NCBI GenBank assembly: GCA_903885665.1
Contig: CAISJL010000013.1
Coordinates: 1 to 64,000, forward strand
Reading direction: 5' to 3'
Length of the DNA stretch: 64,000 bases
Source: an uncultured beta proteobacterium
GTDB lineage: Bacteria; Pseudomonadota; Gammaproteobacteria; Burkholderiales; SG8-41
This document shows positions 4,143 through 22,958 of the stretch, piece after piece. The first letter of the stretch is position 1; the number at the start of each line of letters is the position of its first letter. The notes under the pieces are model-generated. The model searched no databases. It saw only the letters and a list, made by a program, of their open reading frames with translations, and had not been told where the DNA came from. Made by a program: the position numbers and the translations under genes.

Positions 4143-5117
4143 TTAATCAAGTTTTGCGCCAGATATTTTAACAATGCGTGCATACTTTTCCATATCGCGC
4201 CGCACGAACTGACTAAACTCAGCAACGCTACTACCCACAGGATCAGCACCTAAGTTTAAAAATTGCTGACTCAACTCTGGAGATCGCACACTCTTGACTA
4301 ACGCCAAGTTAAGTCGATCAACAATCAATGCTGGTGTTTTAGCAGGTGCGAACATACCATACCAATTCACCGCTTCAAAGCCTGGCACTCCCGATTCATG
4401 AATCGTTGGCAACTCTGGCATTTGTGGTGATCGCTGCAAGCTCGCAATGCCAAACACGCGGACTCGTCCAGTTTTGATATAAGACACAATTGGGGCAATC
4501 GAATTAAACATTAAATTCATATGCCCAGCTAGCACATCAGTCACTGCCTGTGGTGCACCTTTGTAAGGTACATGCGTGATCTCTGTTCCCGTCATCTGCT
4601 TAAATAATTCCATGGCCAAATGATTGGCCACACCATTCCCCGCGGATGCGTAGTTCAGCTTGCCTGGCTGACTCTTAGCCAACGCAATCAGCTCCTTTAT
4701 TGATTTTGCTGCTACCGTCGGATGCGCCATCAATACAAACGGTCCCGATGAAATTAAGCTAATTGGAGAGAAATCTTTAATCGTGTCATAAGGTACTTGC
4801 TGTCTTAAGTGCGGCAAAATAGTTAATGCACCCGGACTGCTAATAAATAAAGTATAGCCATCCGGATTAGCCTTTGCAGCCAACTCTGCACCAATCATAC
4901 CGCCAGCTCCCGCTCGATTATCAGCGACTAAAGGCTGTCCAAGTTGCTGGGAGATGCCCGGAAATACTAATCTCGCAGTCACATCGGGACTAGCGCCCGC
5001 CGGCACCGACAAAATAACTCGTATCGGCTTAGTTGGCCATGTTTCAGCCAAGACGCCACTCACACCGCTTATGAATGCCGTGATAACTATTCCAATGATC
5101 CAAGGGTATGCATGCAA
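4143..5117 (-). CDS. Bug/TctC-family periplasmic solute receptor
   Basis: This is an extracytoplasmic receptor of the tripartite tricarboxylate transporter (Bug) family, which captures carboxylated or aromatic solutes in the periplasm. Family markers are WPTKPIRVI after the signal peptide, DNRAGAGG, PDGYTLF and HVPYKG. The track begins at a TTG at 5186 whose Shine-Dalgarno is too close. I prefer the TTG at 5117, which has GGAG about nine bases upstream, starts a clean signal peptide (HAYPWIIGIVITAFISG) and gives the usual length of about 324 residues. It is divergent from an SDR gene, and the same arrangement recurs at 8.8-10.8 kb. No TctA/TctB permease is nearby. Confidence 0.88.
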   Translation of the reverse strand: MHAYPWIIGIVITAFISGVSGVLAETWPTKPIRVILSVPAGASPDVTARLVFPGISQQLGQPLVADNRAGAGGMIGAELAAKANPDGYTLFISSPGALTILPHLRQQVPYDTIKDFSPISLISSGPFVLMAHPTVAAKSIKELIALAKSQPGKLNYASAGNGVANHLAMELFKQMTGTEITHVPYKGAPQAVTDVLAGHMNLMFNSIAPIVSYIKTGRVRVFGIASLQRSPQMPELPTIHESGVPGFEAVNWYGMFAPAKTPALIVDRLNLALVKSVRSPELSQQFLNLGADPVGSSVAEFSQFVRRDMEKYARIVKISGAKLD

Positions 5118-5314
5118 GTTATATTTCTCCAAGAATTTTACTAAAGCTATCTGTTTATTTGATAATTTGCATGGTATCGCGTTCAAGCCCTTACAGTAAA
5201 TCGCTTTGTATATGGACTCTGCACCTCAAAAGCGCTGCTGGTAGTAGTGGATGACCTATAGTCAATGCTACTATTGGCATGTTTATTTTATTTCATACCT
5301 TTAGGACATTACTC

Positions 5315-6064
5315 ATGCAAACCCTACAAGAATTATCTGGAAAAGTAGCGCTCGTTACAGGGGCATCACGCAACATCGGTCGTTGTATTGCGCTGAGTCT
5401 AGCTGCCGCAGGCGCTAAAGTCGCAGTAAATGCTCGCCACGCACAATCTGATGCAGATGCAGTTGTTGCGGAAATCAAGGCAACTGGTGGTGATGCTCAG
5501 ACATTTATTGCTGACATTGCAGACTCGACAGCAGTGCAGAACATGGTAGATGGAGTACTAAAGACATTTGGTCACATTGATATTTTAGTGCTTAATGCTT
5601 CAGTTCGAAAAGAAACTGCATTCATTGACATGAGCTATGAGGAATGGCGCAGTCTGCTTGCCATTACTCTAGATGGCTCCTTTCACTGTACTAAGGCTTG
5701 CCTACCATCCATGATTGCCTCTGGCGGCGGCAGTATTGTCACTATTGGCGGCATGAGCTCACTGTCTGGTGCGAAGCGACGAGTTCACGGCTCTGTTGGC
5801 AAACATGGACTGTGGGGCATGACGCGCGCCCTCGCCAAAGAATTAGGCGAGTATCAAATTCGCGTAAACTGTGTCGCGCCAGGACAAATGAATACCACCA
5901 GAAGCGCAGATCGCTCAGAACGTCCTGCAGTATCTAATGTACCTTTAGGACGCCGATCTGATCCTGAAGAGATTGCCAGCACCGTACGCTTTTTATGTGG
6001 CCCCGGTGCTACCATGATTAGTGGTCAATTAATTTATGTAGATGGCGGTCAACAACAATTCTAA
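5315..6064 (+). CDS. SDR-family protein lacking the catalytic Ser and Tyr
   Basis: This is a short-chain dehydrogenase/reductase fold with the cofactor loop TGASRNIG at residues 15-22 and NAS at about 94-96. The start is set at 5315 rather than the track start because AGGA lies eight bases before this ATG and the Rossmann strand begins directly after it. The catalytic site is unusual. The Ser position is Gly146, the Tyr position is Gly159, and only Lys163 remains, with His158 next to the lost Tyr. The paralogue at 10.0 kb has the same losses. It may use a different chemistry or bind without reduction. It is divergent from a Bug receptor gene. Confidence 0.82.
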   Translation: MQTLQELSGKVALVTGASRNIGRCIALSLAAAGAKVAVNARHAQSDADAVVAEIKATGGDAQTFIADIADSTAVQNMVDGVLKTFGHIDILVLNASVRKETAFIDMSYEEWRSLLAITLDGSFHCTKACLPSMIASGGGSIVTIGGMSSLSGAKRRVHGSVGKHGLWGMTRALAKELGEYQIRVNCVAPGQMNTTRSADRSERPAVSNVPLGRRSDPEEIASTVRFLCGPGATMISGQLIYVDGGQQQF

Positions 6065-8769: not shown

Positions 8770-9756
8770 CTATTGTGCTTTTATGTTTCCGGCATTGGCA
8801 ATTGTGGTGAATATCGCGATATCGCTTGCGATCAATTTGTCAAACGCTGCAGGCGTTGTTGGGCTTGGCTCCAAGCCAATCGGTGCCCATCGCTTACGCG
8901 CCTCAGGATCATTTAAAATTCGCGTCACTTCATGATTTAAACCCATCAAAATTGGCTTGGGGACCCGTTGCGCCGTAAGCAATCCAAACCACAATATTGA
9001 CTCGAATTTAGGTACGCCGGCTTCCGCAATGGTCGGTACATCGGGTAGCAATGGGTCCCGCTTGATAGATGAAACACCTAAACCTAATAACTTACCCTCA
9101 CGCACAAATACTACAGCATTCGCAATCGGTGACATAAAAAAATTTACTCGTCCAGTCAAAGACTCGGTTAACGCCTCTGGAATTCCCTTGAATGGAATAT
9201 GCACTGCATCAATCTTTGCCATACTCTTAAATAACTCACCAGCAAAATGACTACCGCTACCTACCCCGGCTGATGAGAAATTAAATTGTCCAGATTTTTG
9301 TTGTGCGGCTTGCATTAGATCTTTTAAATTTTTATAGCCGGATGTTGGCGATGTCACCAATACATATTTAGATACCGCTGTTTGCGAAATTCCTGCAAAG
9401 TCACGCAATGCATTAAAAGGCAATTGTGAATAAATTGCAGGTGCAACAGCATGTGCAGAGGATACAGCTAGCAATGTATAGCCATCCGGATTTGCATTAG
9501 CTGTAATATTAGCAGCTATCGTGCCCCCTGCACCGGGACGATTATCAACAATCACTTGTTGCTTATATTCCTCTGATAACCGTTGTGATATATAGCGTGC
9601 GGTAATATCTGGCCCTCCTCCCGGAGTAAACCCGACTAATATTCGTATGGGTTTTATAGGGTAATCAGCTGTGACTGCGCGACTTGCTGCAGTGTACAAA
9701 CCGCACCAAAAAAATAAACTCATTACAATTACATAACATACATTCCTTAAACCCAT
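8770..9756 (-). CDS. Bug/TctC-family periplasmic solute receptor
   Basis: Another Bug-family receptor: hydrophobic signal segment (VCYVIVMSLFFWCGLY), then YPIKPIRILV, DNRPGAGG, NPDGYTLL and HIPFKG, with a usual length of about 328 residues. Start codons GTG at 9759 and ATG at 9756 are both served by a GGAG site; ATG is preferred. It is upstream of the PcaD-like gene on the same strand and divergent from the second SDR gene across a 240-base AT-rich spacer. This repeats the Bug-SDR layout at 4.1-6.1 kb. The ligand is unknown; family members bind di- and tricarboxylates, aromatic acids and amino acids. Confidence 0.9.
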   Translation of the reverse strand: MGLRNVCYVIVMSLFFWCGLYTAASRAVTADYPIKPIRILVGFTPGGGPDITARYISQRLSEEYKQQVIVDNRPGAGGTIAANITANANPDGYTLLAVSSAHAVAPAIYSQLPFNALRDFAGISQTAVSKYVLVTSPTSGYKNLKDLMQAAQQKSGQFNFSSAGVGSGSHFAGELFKSMAKIDAVHIPFKGIPEALTESLTGRVNFFMSPIANAVVFVREGKLLGLGVSSIKRDPLLPDVPTIAEAGVPKFESILWFGLLTAQRVPKPILMGLNHEVTRILNDPEARKRWAPIGLEPSPTTPAAFDKLIASDIAIFTTIANAGNIKAQ

Positions 9757-10000
9757 CACATCACTCCAATAACTGTTATAAAAAAATGCTTTTTTAAAAA
9801 GTCTCGTTTATATCAACTCATTGCTTACAGACTGAATGCATCCAGATTGTTTTTAGCGAATTATTTTTAAGTTTTTCATAATATAGTATGCACTATAACA
9901 GTCCAAAATCATTGATGTCACGATATGGACGGCTCCAGATCAAACATTGCCGGTAATTTTCAATAATTTAGGTATGATCATACTTTTTGAAAGTCTAAAC

Positions 10001-10780
10001 ATGTCAACTTACCACACTCCTGTATCCATTAATCCTAAACCTCTTATTGGTGAAGTTGCACTCATTACTGGTGCAGCAAAAAATATTGGTCGGTCTATCG
10101 CACTAGAGCTTGCAGCAGCAGGTGCTACTGTTGCTATCAATACTCGTAGCTCATTGTCTGAAGCGAATGCCGTTGCTACAGAGGTTCATGCAATGGGTGG
10201 TAATGCCGCCGTTTTTGTAGCAGATATTGCAGACCCAGAAGCAGTCAAGCAAATGTGCGCTGCAGTTGTTAGCACACTGGGAACAATTACAACCCTTGTA
10301 TTGAATGCTTCTGTTCGCCAAGAAATTCCATTCACTGAAATGACTTTTAGTCAGTGGCGAGAAGTCATGTCTATCTCACTCGATGGCTCATTTCATTGCA
10401 TTAAAAATGTTATGCCTGGAATGCTTGCAAGAGGCTGCGGCAATATCATTACCTTAGCAGGGGACACTGCATTGACAGGTGCGATTGGCAAGGTGCACAG
10501 TTCATCTGCAAAAAGTGGCTTAGCGGGAATGACTCGGGCTTTAGCACGCGAGCTCGGACCCCAAGGGATTCGTGTCAACTGCGTCTCACCGGGTAGCTTT
10601 AATACCACACGACCATCATCTCGACCCGCACGCCAACCTGCTGCCGGTCGAATTCCTCTAGGTCGATGGGGTGATTCGGCAGAGTGCGCTGCCACCGTTC
10701 GTTTTTTATGTAGCCCTGAATCAGGCTTTATTACTGGCCAAACTATTCACATTAATGGCGGCCAATGGACTTTTGCATAA
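10001..10780 (+). CDS. SDR-family protein lacking the catalytic Ser and Tyr (paralogue)
   Basis: This is a close relative of the SDR at 5.3 kb, with cofactor loop TGAAKNIG at residues 23-30 and similar sequence almost throughout, including LDGSFHC and NCVSPG. Again the Ser position is Gly (154) and the Tyr position is Ser (167), while Lys171 and a neighbouring His166 are kept. The start at 10001 is chosen because it puts the Rossmann strand at the expected place; its ribosome binding site is weak (GAAAG). The gene begins a rightward run with a CMD-family gene and an MFS gene, suggesting a role in catabolism of the solute bound by the divergent Bug receptor. Confidence 0.82.
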   Translation: MSTYHTPVSINPKPLIGEVALITGAAKNIGRSIALELAAAGATVAINTRSSLSEANAVATEVHAMGGNAAVFVADIADPEAVKQMCAAVVSTLGTITTLVLNASVRQEIPFTEMTFSQWREVMSISLDGSFHCIKNVMPGMLARGCGNIITLAGDTALTGAIGKVHSSSAKSGLAGMTRALARELGPQGIRVNCVSPGSFNTTRPSSRPARQPAAGRIPLGRWGDSAECAATVRFLCSPESGFITGQTIHINGGQWTFA

Positions 10781-10883: not shown

Positions 10884-11456
10884 ATGTCCACTCTTACCCC
10901 ACGCCTTCCCAAAATTCCACCAGAGCAAATGACCGAAGAGCAAAAAAAAGTAGCAGCAGAAATTGTGGCAGGTCCTCGTGGTGAGTTACGCGGCCCCTAC
11001 ATTCCGCTTATTCGTAGTCCAGGGCTTGCCAGTCCACTTCAGCAAGTGGGCGAATATCTTCGCTTCGGCTCTCCCCTTGATCGACGTATTGCAGAGATGG
11101 CCACATTATTAGCTGCACGTCATTGGACACAACATTATGAATGGATTGCGCATCACAAACATGCCATGACTGCCGGATTAAGCCCGGAAATTGCCCAAGC
11201 TATTGCCGAGGGTCGGCGTCCCACGAATATGGCTGCTGATGAAGATGCCGTATATGATCTTGTCATGGAATCGTTAAATAATAAAAGTGTTTGCGATACC
11301 ACCTACAATCGTGCGCTAGTATTATTTGGCGAGCAAGGCATTATTGATTTATTGGGTATCTCAGGATACTACGCACTGCTCGCGATGATTCTTAATGTTG
11401 CGCGCACTCCGTTACCTGTTGGTCGCGATCCAATGATGCCTTGGTTTCCCCACTAA
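10884..11456 (+). CDS. Carboxymuconolactone decarboxylase (CMD)-family protein
   Basis: The 190-residue protein has the all-helical CMD fold signature: an RRIAEMATLLAARHW-like helix followed by HYEWIAHHKHAMTAG. It lacks the CxxC redox pair of AhpD peroxidases, so it belongs to the non-redox branch that includes PcaC-like decarboxylases and many uncharacterised proteins near catabolic SDRs. An AAAAGGAG ribosome binding site precedes the ATG by the right distance. It follows the second atypical SDR by about 100 bases and precedes an MFS carrier, so the three probably form one transcript. Exact reaction unknown. Confidence 0.8.
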   Translation: MSTLTPRLPKIPPEQMTEEQKKVAAEIVAGPRGELRGPYIPLIRSPGLASPLQQVGEYLRFGSPLDRRIAEMATLLAARHWTQHYEWIAHHKHAMTAGLSPEIAQAIAEGRRPTNMAADEDAVYDLVMESLNNKSVCDTTYNRALVLFGEQGIIDLLGISGYYALLAMILNVARTPLPVGRDPMMPWFPH

Positions 11457-11519: not shown

Positions 11520-12656
11520 ATGGCGGTGCTGGTCTTGGCGGCGGTCGCCCCAGCCGTTGCCCTAGATTATGGTATTAATAGTTCGCTCATTGGTTACCAA
11601 ATCAGTTTGATTAGTTTTGGGATGATGTTAACCCTCACATTATTAGGTAATACGAGCAAACGATATGGAGCGGCACGCACTAATCAAATTGGGCACGCTT
11701 TCATCGCAAGCGGTATTTTAATACTACTCATACCTTGGCTACCATTTCTGATCGTGGGATCACTGATTATTGGTTTAGGCTACGGCATGATCACCCCTTC
11801 CGCCTCTCATTTACTGATGCGTTATACCTTGCCACATCGTCGTAGCACAGTATTTTCTATCCATCAAATCGGAATCCCTGCAGGTGGCATACTTGCATCC
11901 TCGATCGCACCTGCGATCACTGTGTATGCAAGTTGGCACTGGGCAGTACTTTTTAGTGCAAGTCTGTTAGTTTGTGTTGTATTACTCATGCAAGTACGGC
12001 GCCATCATTGGGACGATGATCGCGATCAAAGTGCGGCTATCATCACCCCCAATCCATTTGCAGGTACTCAAGCAATTTGGGCTCATCCCAAGCTAAGACT
12101 TGCCACACTGGCCGGCAGTTGCTTTTCGTGGGTACAATTCTGCACAGCGACATTCACGGTTGTTGCTTGTGTATCTGTATTGCAGATGGACTTGTTAATT
12201 GCAGGCACTGTATTGTCTGTAGTACAACTCTCAAGCGCAGCTGGTCGAGTATTAATGGGGTGGATTGTCGATCGTATTAATAACACAATCATCGTCCTGG
12301 GTTTCAATGCAGCCATCTTAATCATTGCTACTATCGCAACCCTTTTTTTAACCCCAGAATTGCCATTATTTGCAATCTATATTTTATTTGCGGTTCTTGG
12401 TGCAACCTCTGGTAGCTGGCCAGGAGTGCTGTTATCCGAAGTGGGACGACTAGCCCCCTCGGGAAATGTTAGCTTAGCCATCAGCGGTTCTCTAGTCATT
12501 ACGAACGTAGGTAAATTTTTAGGACCTATTATTTTCGTCAATATGTATGCTTATTCACAACAATATACCCTAACATTTGCAGCTCTTACTGTACCAGCAG
12601 TAATTGCTTTATATAGTTTATATGCGGCTCAGCAACAATCAGAACAGACCACATAA
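11520..12656 (+). CDS. MFS transporter, N-terminus uncertain
   Basis: This is a major facilitator superfamily carrier with about 11-12 membrane helices and an RRST loop between halves of the first domain. The annotated ATG has no ribosome binding site and cuts the first helix short: in the same frame upstream the codons read LFLLLTLLAGHSFAS, which is good transmembrane sequence, but no ATG, GTG or TTG exists before the in-frame TAA at 11463. A CTG at 11475 or an ATT could be the start, or a 5' lesion has removed it. It lies 63 bases after the CMD gene. The family is clear; intactness is less so. Confidence 0.75.
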   Translation: MAVLVLAAVAPAVALDYGINSSLIGYQISLISFGMMLTLTLLGNTSKRYGAARTNQIGHAFIASGILILLIPWLPFLIVGSLIIGLGYGMITPSASHLLMRYTLPHRRSTVFSIHQIGIPAGGILASSIAPAITVYASWHWAVLFSASLLVCVVLLMQVRRHHWDDDRDQSAAIITPNPFAGTQAIWAHPKLRLATLAGSCFSWVQFCTATFTVVACVSVLQMDLLIAGTVLSVVQLSSAAGRVLMGWIVDRINNTIIVLGFNAAILIIATIATLFLTPELPLFAIYILFAVLGATSGSWPGVLLSEVGRLAPSGNVSLAISGSLVITNVGKFLGPIIFVNMYAYSQQYTLTFAALTVPAVIALYSLYAAQQQSEQTT

Positions 12657-12737: not shown

Positions 12738-13514
12738 ATGAACACGATACTAAAGGTATTTTTCATAATCAGCATTTTAATAACATTTACTGCACGTTCT
12801 CAAACACCCAGCCCGCAAATGCAATACAACGATGCATGCGCCCACTGCCATACACCTGGACTTGGTGGCGCACCTCGCTTAGGTTCAGCTAAAGACTGGA
12901 GTGCACGCATCCGTCCTGGCCTTAATTTACTGTATCAATCAGCACTATATGGTGTACCCAATACAACCATGTCCGCCAAAGGTGGATACAAAGAATTAAG
13001 TGATATTAATGTACGTGCAATCGTCGATTTCATTCTGAGCGCAAGTCAAATAACACCTTTGCAACTTGCTGCCGCAGTTCGCTATGATACGCTAGGTATT
13101 AAAGACCGTGAATTCATTTATTTAGATGCTAATTTTGACGGCGTGTTAAATAAGCAAGAACTTGGTCGCGATTCGATGTTGACTGATAAGCTATCACGCT
13201 TTGACCAAAATTTTGATGGTGTAATTAGCTTTAAAGAATACCAGACTCTAACTATTGAGCTTGAGGGGGATCGGACAAATGCTAATGTTACTGATTTAAC
13301 AATCAGCAACGAGATTCACTTGATATTGCAATCTATGCCCCTACTAAAAGGGCAGGCCATAAAAATTGATGTGCAAGCTGGGCGCGTGATAATCACTGGC
13401 ATGGTCAATACAGCACAGGATATTCTTAGCGTGCAACGTGCCCTGCGTTGGGTCTCTGGCATTAAACAAATAGACAATCGTTTAGTATCTGGGGCGCTAT
13501 TAGCTTGGGACTAA
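12738..13514 (+). CDS. Exported cytochrome c - EF-hand pair - BON domain protein
   Basis: After a signal peptide (residues 1 to about 22) comes a c5-like cytochrome c domain with heme site CAHCH at 34-38 and a probable axial Met78 in MSAKGGY. Two perfect EF-hand loops follow, DANFDGVLNKQE at 130-141 and DQNFDGVISFKE at 156-167, which should bind a pair of calcium ions. Residues 185-252 look like a BON domain (QRALRWVSGIKQIDNRLV), a module linked to membrane or ligand binding. The start at 12738 is placed directly before the signal peptide. It follows the MFS gene by about 80 bases. Each module is recognisable; I do not know a named family with this order. Confidence 0.8.
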   Translation: MNTILKVFFIISILITFTARSQTPSPQMQYNDACAHCHTPGLGGAPRLGSAKDWSARIRPGLNLLYQSALYGVPNTTMSAKGGYKELSDINVRAIVDFILSASQITPLQLAAAVRYDTLGIKDREFIYLDANFDGVLNKQELGRDSMLTDKLSRFDQNFDGVISFKEYQTLTIELEGDRTNANVTDLTISNEIHLILQSMPLLKGQAIKIDVQAGRVIITGMVNTAQDILSVQRALRWVSGIKQIDNRLVSGALLAWD

Positions 13515-13655: not shown

Positions 13656-14654
13656 TTATTGATTAGCAACAATACCTGCAGCCTTAACCGTTTTTGCCCA
13701 TTTTACTAGCTCAGTCCGGATATACGCTCCAGCTTCAGCGGGTGAGTTTCCAATGGGCACCGATCCTAATCGTGCAAATCGCTCACGCACTTCAGGTAAT
13801 CCAATAATTCGAACGGATTCTTTATTCAGTTTTTCAATGATTGGCGTTGGAATCTTAGCCGGTCCAATCAAGACGCCCCAAGAGGTCGATTCATAGCCAG
13901 GCACTGTGTCTGCTATTGCCGGCACATCGGGCAACTCTGTTGAACGCTCTTTTGAAGTCACCCCCAAAGGTCGCAAACGCCCACCTTTAATATGCGGTAG
14001 TGTTGCAATAACCGTATCAAACATGACATCCACTCTGCCACCCATCAAATCTGGATGTGCTGCAGTGCTACCTTTATAGGGCACATGCAAAAGTTTTACC
14101 CCGGTCATCAGCTTAAATAATTCTGCGCTCATATGCGGTGAGCTCCCCGTACCACTGGAAGCAAAACTTAATTTATCAGGGCGCGCCTTAGCCATCTCAA
14201 TCACATCTTTGACGGTTTTACCAGAAAACTGATTGTGGGTGACTAATATCAAAGGATTAGCTGCAGTAATTGTAATCATTGAAAAATCACGGCTCGAATC
14301 ATAGGGTAATTTATGAACTGCAGCATTCACTGCAAAGCTCAACGAACCCAAACCCAGCGTATATCCATCAGGGGCCGACTTTGCAACTAAGTCCGTACCA
14401 ATAATGCCTGTAGCTCCAGTGCGATTATCAACGACTGCATTAACACCCCAAGTTTGAGAAAATTTTTCCGCGAGCATACGAGCAGTGACATCTGAAGCAC
14501 CGCCAGGTGGGAATGGCACAATAATTCGGATTGGGCGATCGGGATACGCTGCCATGGCCATGGTATTCATTAAAAAAGACGCTACGATACCTAAGTAACT
14601 TAATATCTGATTGGCGGCATTTGTGGTGCCCATGGTTTTGGTGTAAATCTTCAT
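13656..14654 (-). CDS. Bug/TctC-family periplasmic solute receptor
   Basis: Bug receptor with YPDRPIRIIVPFPPGGASD, DNRTGATG, PDGYTLGLG and HVPYKG. The track start adds 20 residues; I use the ATG at 14654, which has AGAGGG four bases upstream and begins the signal-peptide region (hydrophobic core ILSYLGIVASFLMNTMAMA). The protein is then 332 residues. It is convergent with the cytochrome/EF-hand gene and stands alone, with no permease partner nearby. The ligand is unknown. Confidence 0.9.
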   Translation of the reverse strand: MKIYTKTMGTTNAANQILSYLGIVASFLMNTMAMAAYPDRPIRIIVPFPPGGASDVTARMLAEKFSQTWGVNAVVDNRTGATGIIGTDLVAKSAPDGYTLGLGSLSFAVNAAVHKLPYDSSRDFSMITITAANPLILVTHNQFSGKTVKDVIEMAKARPDKLSFASSGTGSSPHMSAELFKLMTGVKLLHVPYKGSTAAHPDLMGGRVDVMFDTVIATLPHIKGGRLRPLGVTSKERSTELPDVPAIADTVPGYESTSWGVLIGPAKIPTPIIEKLNKESVRIIGLPEVRERFARLGSVPIGNSPAEAGAYIRTELVKWAKTVKAAGIVANQ

Positions 14655-15000
14655 ATTACCCTCTAGTTTAATTATTAATCGGTATAGTCTAGCAATTATA
14701 ACGTTGTGGCACATGAATCCATATTCTCACCGACGTGCACAAGCAAAAAAACGTGCATTTAGCGCTGCACCTAATGCAGACTAAAGGCAAGGTCGATCCG
14801 TCCGTATTTTGAACTAATTGCCTGCCCTATATTACCTACGGACCTTAATTTCATATACTATCGAGGATCAATAAACTGCATCATACAAAATAATTGCTAG
14901 CCTTATTATTTGTTAATATGACTCATCTTTTAATCATATTTAAATCATTTTTTAACTTACTTGCCTTTGCATTAATACCATCTATTTTGGAGATCATGTG
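14655..15000. other. Intergenic region, divergent promoters likely
   Basis: AT-rich spacer between a leftward Bug gene and a rightward hydrolase gene. Seven-base inverted arms (GTCCGTA near 14800 and TACGGAC near 14837) are present with a 30-base loop. A 23-codon ORF at 14713-14784 has no ribosome binding site and I do not regard it as a gene. No RNA gene was recognised. Confidence 0.4.
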
Positions 15001-19687: not shown

Positions 19688-20659
19688 ATGAATAAATCTC
19701 TACGTTCAATCATCAGCACGCTCACGCTGGGGCTAATAATCACAACCATACAGGCCCAAAATTATCCAAACCGCGCTATACGTATCCTTATACCCTTTAC
19801 TGTCGGTAGCGCTGCAGATGTCATAGCGCGTGCTATCGAGCCTGCGTTACGTGACCGACTTGGGCAAGCAATTGTGATTGACAATCGCGGCGGTGCCGGC
19901 GGCAATATTGCTGCTGAGCTTGCTGCTAAAAGCGTGCCTGATGGATATACCTTAATGATGGGCACAATTGGCACGCATGCGATTAATTTAAGTTTATATT
20001 CAAAGCTAAACTATCACCCAATTACCAGCTTTACACCCATTACTAAAGTTGGAGACAGTCCCAATATTTTAGTTGTTAATCCCAGTGTCCCAGCAAAAAC
20101 AGTCAAAGAGCTAATCCAAATCGCTAAAAATAAACCAGGTATATTAAATTACGGCACTTCGGGCTCTGGCACTTCTGTGCATTTGTCAGCTGAGCTATTT
20201 AATAACATGGCCAAAGTTAAAACGATCCACGTACCGTTCAAAGGTGCTGCAGAAGCATTAACCGCACTTATTTCTGGGCAAACCGATTTAATGTTTGCCA
20301 GCATGTCTTCTGCAATCCCAATGATTAAAGCAAATCGTCTCCGGCCTCTGGGTGTCACCTCTCCAACTCGCACCGCTGCACTGCCTGAGATACCCACAAT
20401 CTCTGAAGCTGGATTGCCTGGTTTTAATGCTGTTGCATGGTATGGCTTAGTGGGACCTGCAGGGCTACCCATTGCAATAGTGAGTGCTCTGAATAAAGCT
20501 ATGCTCGATTGCCTAGCACAGCCCGATGTCAAAGCACGCCTAGCCAACTCTGGCGTCGAAACTGTTCCCGGTAATTCAGAGGAGTTTCGTAAATTAATTG
20601 AGTCTGAAATACCTAAATGGGCAGCAGTAGTTAAAGCTTCTGGCGCAAAAGCTGATTAA
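19688..20659 (+). CDS. Bug/TctC-family periplasmic solute receptor
   Basis: Bug receptor of 323 residues: signal peptide to about residue 22, then YPNRAIRILIPFTVGSAAD, DNRGGAGG, PDGYTLM and HVPFKG. The start is supported by GGAGG seven bases upstream. It is divergent from the metallo-beta-lactamase-fold gene and convergent with the quinone-oxidoreductase-like gene. The ligand is unknown and no permease is linked. Confidence 0.92.
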   Translation: MNKSLRSIISTLTLGLIITTIQAQNYPNRAIRILIPFTVGSAADVIARAIEPALRDRLGQAIVIDNRGGAGGNIAAELAAKSVPDGYTLMMGTIGTHAINLSLYSKLNYHPITSFTPITKVGDSPNILVVNPSVPAKTVKELIQIAKNKPGILNYGTSGSGTSVHLSAELFNNMAKVKTIHVPFKGAAEALTALISGQTDLMFASMSSAIPMIKANRLRPLGVTSPTRTAALPEIPTISEAGLPGFNAVAWYGLVGPAGLPIAIVSALNKAMLDCLAQPDVKARLANSGVETVPGNSEEFRKLIESEIPKWAAVVKASGAKAD

Positions 20660-21711: not shown

Positions 21712-22713
21712 TTACTCCATCGCCATTTCACTCACGATCGGCCCCCAACGACGTAACTCCTTCTGTACAAATTGCGCGGTACGCTCGGGAGAGGTGCTGA
21801 CAACAGGTTCGGCACCTGCCTGCCTTAAAAACTCTTGCATCTGTGATAGCGCCATAATTTTAGCATTGGCTTGACTGAGGGCATCTACAACTGCACGCGG
21901 CGTATTGGCCGGCAAAAACAATGCATTAAAAGCTTGCACAACCAACTCTGGCATACCAGCTTGTCCCGATGTTGGAACATCAGGCACTGCATGTAAACGC
22001 TCTTCAGCACAAATCACCAACATTCGAATGCGGCCTGCTTTGTGATACTGCAGTGGGGCAGGACTAATCGTTGGCATATAGACAGGAATATGTCCTGCGA
22101 CCAAGTCGCTAAGGCCCGGACCTGCCCCCTTATACGGAATATGAACCATCTTTAAATCACCGCCTAATTTTTTTAACAACTCGCCTGTCAAATGCGTGAT
22201 GCTTCCGGTGCCAGCCGAACCATACGATAACTGCCCAGGATTCTTTTTCGCAAAATTCACCAGCTCTTTTAACGCCTTAACTGGCATCGATGGGTGCACT
22301 GCAACTCCAGTAGGCACCATTGTGATAATCCCTAATGGGGTGAAATCTTTAATTGGGTCATAGCCCAAATTTTTATTACCTAATGGATTTAGCACATGAG
22401 TAGTAGTGTTAGCGATGAGTAACGTATGGCCATCTGGTTTAGCGCGAACAACCTCCATTGCACCTATTGCCCCAGATGCACCCGCGCGATTATCAATCAC
22501 TATAGCCTGCCCTAATACTCGGGTCATCTCCTGAGCCCAACGCCTACCAATGATGTCATTAACACCCCCAGGTGCAAACGGCACCACAAGACGAATTGGA
22601 CGATCAGGAAACTTAGTTTGTGCAGCCGATTGGCATACTGCGCCATACATGAATATGAAAATTAAGATCGACCGCTTTAGATTCAAAGACTCCAAACGCC
22701 AAATCGACGACAT
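21712..22713 (-). CDS. Bug/TctC-family periplasmic solute receptor
   Basis: Bug receptor with FPDRPIRLVVPFAPGGVND, DNRAGASG, PDGHTLL and HIPYKG. The track begins at a TTG; the ATG at 22713 has AAGGAGA seven bases upstream and is the better start, giving 333 residues. The signal segment (RSILIFIFMYGAVCQSAAQ) follows. It probably shares a transcript with the oxidoreductase gene downstream. In place of the usual PDGYT it has PDGHT. Confidence 0.9.
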   Translation of the reverse strand: MSSIWRLESLNLKRSILIFIFMYGAVCQSAAQTKFPDRPIRLVVPFAPGGVNDIIGRRWAQEMTRVLGQAIVIDNRAGASGAIGAMEVVRAKPDGHTLLIANTTTHVLNPLGNKNLGYDPIKDFTPLGIITMVPTGVAVHPSMPVKALKELVNFAKKNPGQLSYGSAGTGSITHLTGELLKKLGGDLKMVHIPYKGAGPGLSDLVAGHIPVYMPTISPAPLQYHKAGRIRMLVICAEERLHAVPDVPTSGQAGMPELVVQAFNALFLPANTPRAVVDALSQANAKIMALSQMQEFLRQAGAEPVVSTSPERTAQFVQKELRRWGPIVSEMAME

Positions 22714-22958
22714 GCACAACTCTCCTTCAAAGTTACCTTATGAATACAATCACTTAAATTGCATTTTTTACGTTTACAGAAAGAATAGAGTTAGCATTCT
22801 CATGTCTTAGAGCAATCATACAACATGAGCTAATATGCACAAAAAACACACACAATAGCTAAACTTCAATCATAGTCGTGATGCTAAATCGTATCTCTCA
22901 TTTGCGCAACTGACTACAATGCTGGGCGTCCGTTAATTAAACGGGTCCGATTAAGTCA

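Follow-up and report, generated by a model that had tools for sequence, protein, structure and literature searches.

A predicted cytochrome c–EF-hand–BON fusion protein in Burkholderiales and the possible place of calcium in its architecture

What might a bacterium do with a single predicted secreted protein that combines a heme domain, two EF-hand loops, and a BON domain? The question is raised by an ORF of 258 codons (start ATG, stop TAA) in a 64,000-nucleotide stretch of contig CAISJL010000013.1 (hereafter the window) from an uncultured Burkholderiales bacterium (the host). BON domains are common in bacterial envelopes and poorly understood. The first-pass annotation had recognized the three modules in this 258-residue protein and had recommended profile searches, a search for other genomes with the same order, and a structure prediction, all of which bore it out. 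Each of cytochrome c, EF-hand, and BON had at least one model above its curated Pfam cut-off. Cytochrome_CBB3 matched residues 25-99 with 37.1 bits (cut-off 27), the cytochrome c region extending over residues 25-99/102 across models; EF-hand_5 scored 34.2 bits (cut-off 25.9) in two stretches within residues ~124-171; and a single BON domain was detected at residues 186-250 with 32.1 bits (cut-off 27) (Table 1). By sequence, the closest solved structure to the N-terminal part was cytochrome c-554/c-555 (PDB 4j20; phmmer, E 2e-10). An AlphaFold2 model based on an alignment of 21 relatives had a mean pLDDT of 85, with a pTM of only 0.72, which leaves the arrangement of the domains uncertain. Its C terminus showed the helix-strand-strand-helix-strand order of the BON fold, and Foldseek matched one half of the model to 4j20 and the other half to OsmY, DolP, and BonA.

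Table 1. Features of the fusion gene, its product, and the upstream genes of the same run (window coordinates)
Feature	Position	Strand	Basis
Cytochrome c–EF-hand–BON gene, 258 aa	12738..13514	+	ORF, translation, Pfam, ~20 homologous loci
Putative Sec signal peptide, residues 1-21	12738..12800	+	Hydrophobic helix 2-17 in model
Cytochrome c5-type heme domain, residues 25-104	12810..13049	+	PF13442/PF00034, phmmer and Foldseek to 4j20
Heme attachment motif CAHCH, residues 34-38	12837..12851	+	Sequence, family conservation
Met78, presumed distal heme ligand, in PNTxM	12969..12971	+	Invariant in 21/21 aligned
Conserved helical linker, residues 105-123	13050..13106	+	Model helix 107-119, family conservation
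EF-hand loop 1, DANFDGVLNKQE, residues 130-141	13125..13160	+	Canonical ligands
EF-hand loop 2, DQNFDGVISFKE, residues 156-167	13203..13238	+	PF13202
BON domain, residues 186-250	13293..13487	+	PF04972 32.1 bits, Foldseek OsmY/DolP
Short C-terminal tail ending (W/F)D-COOH, residues 251-258	13488..13511	+	Asp258 end common to aligned members
SDR-fold oxidoreductase without usual catalytic Tyr, first in run	9947..10780	+	Pfam, motif alignment
CMD-like protein, just below Pfam cut-off	10884..11456	+	Pfam
MFS transporter directly upstream of cytochrome gene	11520..12656	+	Pfam

Covalent heme attachment at CxxCH implies a periplasmic location, and the hydrophobic helix with which the model begins (residues 2-17) fits a signal peptide. 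Helix and heme motif (C34-A-H-C37-H38) together predict export of the fusion protein, as initially supposed. The CxxCH motif was kept in all members complete at that region. Met78, previously flagged as a possible axial ligand, falls where cytochrome c5/c554 has its distal Met ligand and was kept in all 21 aligned members, in the context PNT(A/T)M or, once, PNTQM; judged from what is known of cytochrome families, the invariance of motif and Met favors a redox-active carrier. Both EF loops of the host protein, described from the outset as canonical, fit the 12-residue pattern D1, D/N/S3, D/N/S5, G6, E12, and shuffling the residues of that protein 20,000 times gave two such loops in 0 cases.

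The cytochrome-EF-BON order was common to ~20 loci, from betaproteobacteria of freshwater and other environments. In the GTDB family of the host, matches reaching past the cytochrome into the EF-hand/BON part were found in 16 of 74 genomes including the host (one match being interrupted by a contig end), and these carriers belonged to two genera (13 of 21 and 3 of 4 genomes). Part of the host's own genus lacks the gene, which is therefore dispensable. Beyond the host family, scanning a single genome of each species with the family alignment as query recovered Polynucleobacter rarus, Polynucleobacter kasalickyi, and several Burkholderiaceae/uncultured MAGs; the alignment was required, as the same kind of contig scan with a single protein as query gave zero matches. 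Outside the host family, evenly drawn samples of 399 order, 369 class, and 399 phylum genomes contained no full-length member at the thresholds applied, and rare members elsewhere are possible because these searches were samples and the pattern scan was not exhaustive. No relatives were found in the viral contigs searched, plasmid matches spanned the cytochrome part only, and the Polynucleobacter copy had zero matches to plasmids. Two database labels deserve comment. A MAG titled Bordetella parapertussis (CAMCYP010000019.1) carries the fusion and matches a host-genus genome, so its label looks wrong, and a 60%-identical fusion fragment (query 62-142) at positions 422-664 of a 3.7-kb contig labelled actinobacterium is probably contamination.

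Cytochrome and BON profiles matched 21 of 21 members, and all aligned members terminated at the same Asp258. Between close pairs of fusion genes dN/dS was ~0.09-0.25, with dN below dS in the cytochrome, EF, and BON parts alike; the fusion gene is under purifying selection. That selection, together with the recurrence of this order at a similar length in separate assemblies, those of named Polynucleobacter strains among them, refutes a chance or assembly artefact joining unrelated genes, an explanation that is vanishingly improbable and in whose favor no point was found; the host assembly is fragmented (187 contigs).

All parts of the protein are known, and their combination appears undescribed. 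A full-text literature search, with most subscription papers outside its coverage, returned no paper containing 'cytochrome c', 'EF-hand', and 'BON domain'. Table 1 of a survey of BON partners lists secretin, CBS, OmpA, mechanosensitive channel, Kbp-type (LysM), and other partners, and neither EF-hand nor cytochrome c is among them (PMC7806268), in agreement with the first-pass remark that it could put no name to the order. The fusion shares CxxCH, the GAP motif, a distal Met, and the fold with class I cytochromes c5, c-554, and c-555 (PDB 4j20, 1kx2, 1cc5), which are single small domains, whereas the fusion adds EF-hands and BON. With OsmY, DolP, and BonA it shares the BON fold and predicted export; however, OsmY and DolP have two BON domains, while the fusion has one with a heme domain in front.

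The C-terminal half also exists by itself. Secreted EF-EF-BON proteins of ~160-220 aa without heme were present in 12 of 300 sampled Burkholderiales genomes (~4%); the sample gave 18 hits, those beyond the 12 being BON-only proteins, a fragment, or the fusion itself. Another stand-alone protein (P0002) occurs in the host's own family. These proteins (P0002, L131-L137, L139-L143) have the EF-EF-BON order of the fusion but lack both its heme domain and its C-terminal (W/F)D tail. Their occurrence marks the C-terminal half as an existing unit, and, as far as sequence comparison goes, the fusion is best read as a c5 cytochrome put in front of a pre-existing EF-BON unit.

Our tentative reading, to which we assign a probability of about 0.45, is that the protein carries electrons in the periplasm while its BON domain tethers it in place and calcium serves as a structural clamp. 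After export it would acquire a single heme and become a class I (c5-type) cytochrome c in which His38 and Met78 are the ligands, and this heme would cycle between the ferric and ferrous states in the periplasm. The C-terminal half would consist of the EF-hand pair and an OsmY-type BON domain, the module also known as separate secreted proteins, and BON would most likely dock the cytochrome to an envelope protein or assembly. Electron delivery would then take place at a fixed site instead of depending on free diffusion. In the host lineage, the calcium-loaded EF pair would act as a structural clamp between heme and BON domains and not as an on/off switch. In DolP, BON2 binds phospholipid through a Trp in its first helix (PMC7806268). 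This Trp was absent from the first BON helix of every member of the fusion family, so DolP-like lipid tethering is not supported, and a protein is the likelier docking partner, although naming that partner would be guesswork.

An electron sink exists in the host, given that its genome has one match to a COX1-type heme-copper oxidase subunit. The suggestion that the protein serves a dedicated dehydrogenase encoded elsewhere was not borne out, because the only PQQ alcohol dehydrogenase gene found in the host genome (contig C98, L117 913-3894, with a DxWDFD stretch) is interrupted by an in-frame stop and has a cytochrome c of its own next to it, and no dehydrogenase or oxidase was found as a steady neighbor of the fusion across clades. 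That PQQ gene is followed by genes for a 117-aa cytochrome c and a periplasmic binding protein, an order resembling xoxF-G-J.

In the window, the fusion gene closes a rightward run of SDR-CMD-MFS-cytochrome genes, as originally described; Pfam and the missing catalytic Tyr agree with calling the SDR atypical. The same order was found in three near relatives (L028, L030, and L042), and in two of these loci the gap between the MFS and fusion genes is ~10 bases, so the fusion gene is probably cotranscribed with the run there. Two SDRs of the window (9947-10780 and 5279-6064) lack the catalytic Tyr of YxxxK and have HSSSAK and HGSVGK instead, motifs that are kept in the three syntenic relatives. 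Bug/TctC-type solute-binding genes, recognized by sequence alone, lie at 4143-5186, 8770-9759, 13656-14714, 19688-20659, and 21712-22719, and a 3-oxoadipate enol-lactonase-like hydrolase, scoring just below cut-off, is encoded near the fusion gene. The surrounding Bug-type, MFS, and lactonase-like genes suggest organic acid uptake and breakdown. In the other clade of the host family the neighbors are quite different, and comparison of neighborhoods, which vary by clade, revealed no conserved redox partner adjoining the fusion gene. The host copy has a long branch (0.98), and its identity to the syntenic relatives is only 47%, compared to 61-74% for the neighboring genes; evolution faster than that of neighbors is unusual for a core respiratory carrier and counts against the carrier reading, as do the dispensability of the gene and the lack of a conserved redox partner beside it.

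The main rival, less probable and on balance unlikely, is that the fusion is an accessory, non-respiratory protein in which the heme domain acts as a fold or redox sensor, the EF-BON half assisting an exported partner in folding or metal binding, in the manner of OsmY or TfcP. For the Polynucleobacter group, this partner could be a Tat-motif (RRTFFK) amidohydrolase, since there and in two further MAGs the fusion lies ~40 bases before the amidohydrolase gene, a pair preserved in six genomes across two differing upstream contexts. The host genome encodes a 67% identical homolog. It lies on another contig, however. The two genes do not adjoin in the host family, and the amidohydrolase occurs in many genomes that lack the fusion. 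In the host genus its presence tracks the genus as a whole, occurring in 12 of 13 genomes with the fusion and 7 of 8 without, no more than expected. With adjacency limited to the Polynucleobacter group and two related MAGs, and co-occurrence within the genus uninformative, the amidohydrolase was rejected as an obligate partner. In several host-family genomes (L121, L123-L129) it adjoins petABC-sspAB-like genes, named from order and size only. An accessory role does have a precedent in TfcP of Myxococcus xanthus, a cytochrome c of the periplasm with a link to calcium biology, which stimulates the binding of calcium by PilY1 (PMC8833165). TfcP has His/Cys ligation and a very low potential and is not described there as having an EF-hand or BON domain of its own, whereas Met78 is invariant in the fusion family. 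Also in favor of an accessory role, P0002 is nearest to OsmY in NCBIfam, though below cut-off.

The conservation of the EF-hand pair differs between lineages. Both loops are canonical in nearly all host-family members, one loop of a single member (L058) deviating, whereas in the P. rarus/kasalickyi group the EF1 ligands are gone (e.g., DQFRLGYLEKKN) and EF2 is partly eroded, with heme and BON kept; two MAGs (L050 and L054) are intermediate. The first-pass annotation envisaged a calcium-gated periplasmic electron carrier, with calcium on the EF pair altering heme exposure or potential and thereby switching electron flow. Its periplasmic carrier is retained here in tentative form, while gating now appears quite improbable. 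In favor of gating, the two canonical loops persist in the host and in nearly every member of its family although other parts of the protein have diverged, and a conserved helix joins the EF pair to the heme domain. However, the persistence of cytochrome and BON after decay of the EF loops in the Polynucleobacter group argues against obligatory gating and indicates that calcium is not essential to the whole family, and no evidence of EF-heme coupling was found. Periplasmic calcium, moreover, largely follows the medium and would make a poor switch. The gap between the loops is 14 residues in every complete member, including those that lost ligands, and this constancy suits a structural role of the EF pair. 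Calcium binding, itself predicted from the loop sequences, may matter in the host's lineage, and where the loops are intact calcium most likely stabilizes the heme-BON junction.

The 14-residue gap is also close to that of lanmodulin (12-13) and unlike the usual ~25 (PMC10232371), which, with a weak NCBIfam LanM match (E 0.016) and the DxWDFD-bearing PQQ dehydrogenase gene of the host, would fit a lanthanide-binding, lanmodulin-like module serving a lanthanide PQQ dehydrogenase. Against this, that dehydrogenase is broken by the in-frame stop and has its own cytochrome, and the LanM match reached 15 bits against a cut-off of 135. Lanmodulin is a stand-alone protein with four EF-hands and Pro at loop position 2, whereas the fusion has two EF-hands and no Pro2 in the loops compared. 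Membership of the lanmodulin family was therefore rejected on EF number, spacing (14 vs. 12-13), and Pro2, and a lanthanide role is highly improbable.

A bolder extension, which we consider decidedly doubtful, is that the place of a cytochrome c in the envelope, and perhaps its electron flow, is set by its own metal-dependent dock, calcium ordering the EF pair so that BON is fixed to a partner assembly, with the Polynucleobacter relatives having lost the calcium ligands and kept the dock. Intact and destroyed EF loops on one scaffold constitute a natural experiment on calcium, and two named Polynucleobacter strains with the fusion make the calcium question testable. For BON domains more generally, one welded to an electron carrier offers a handle with a built-in color, the heme, for finding BON binding targets.
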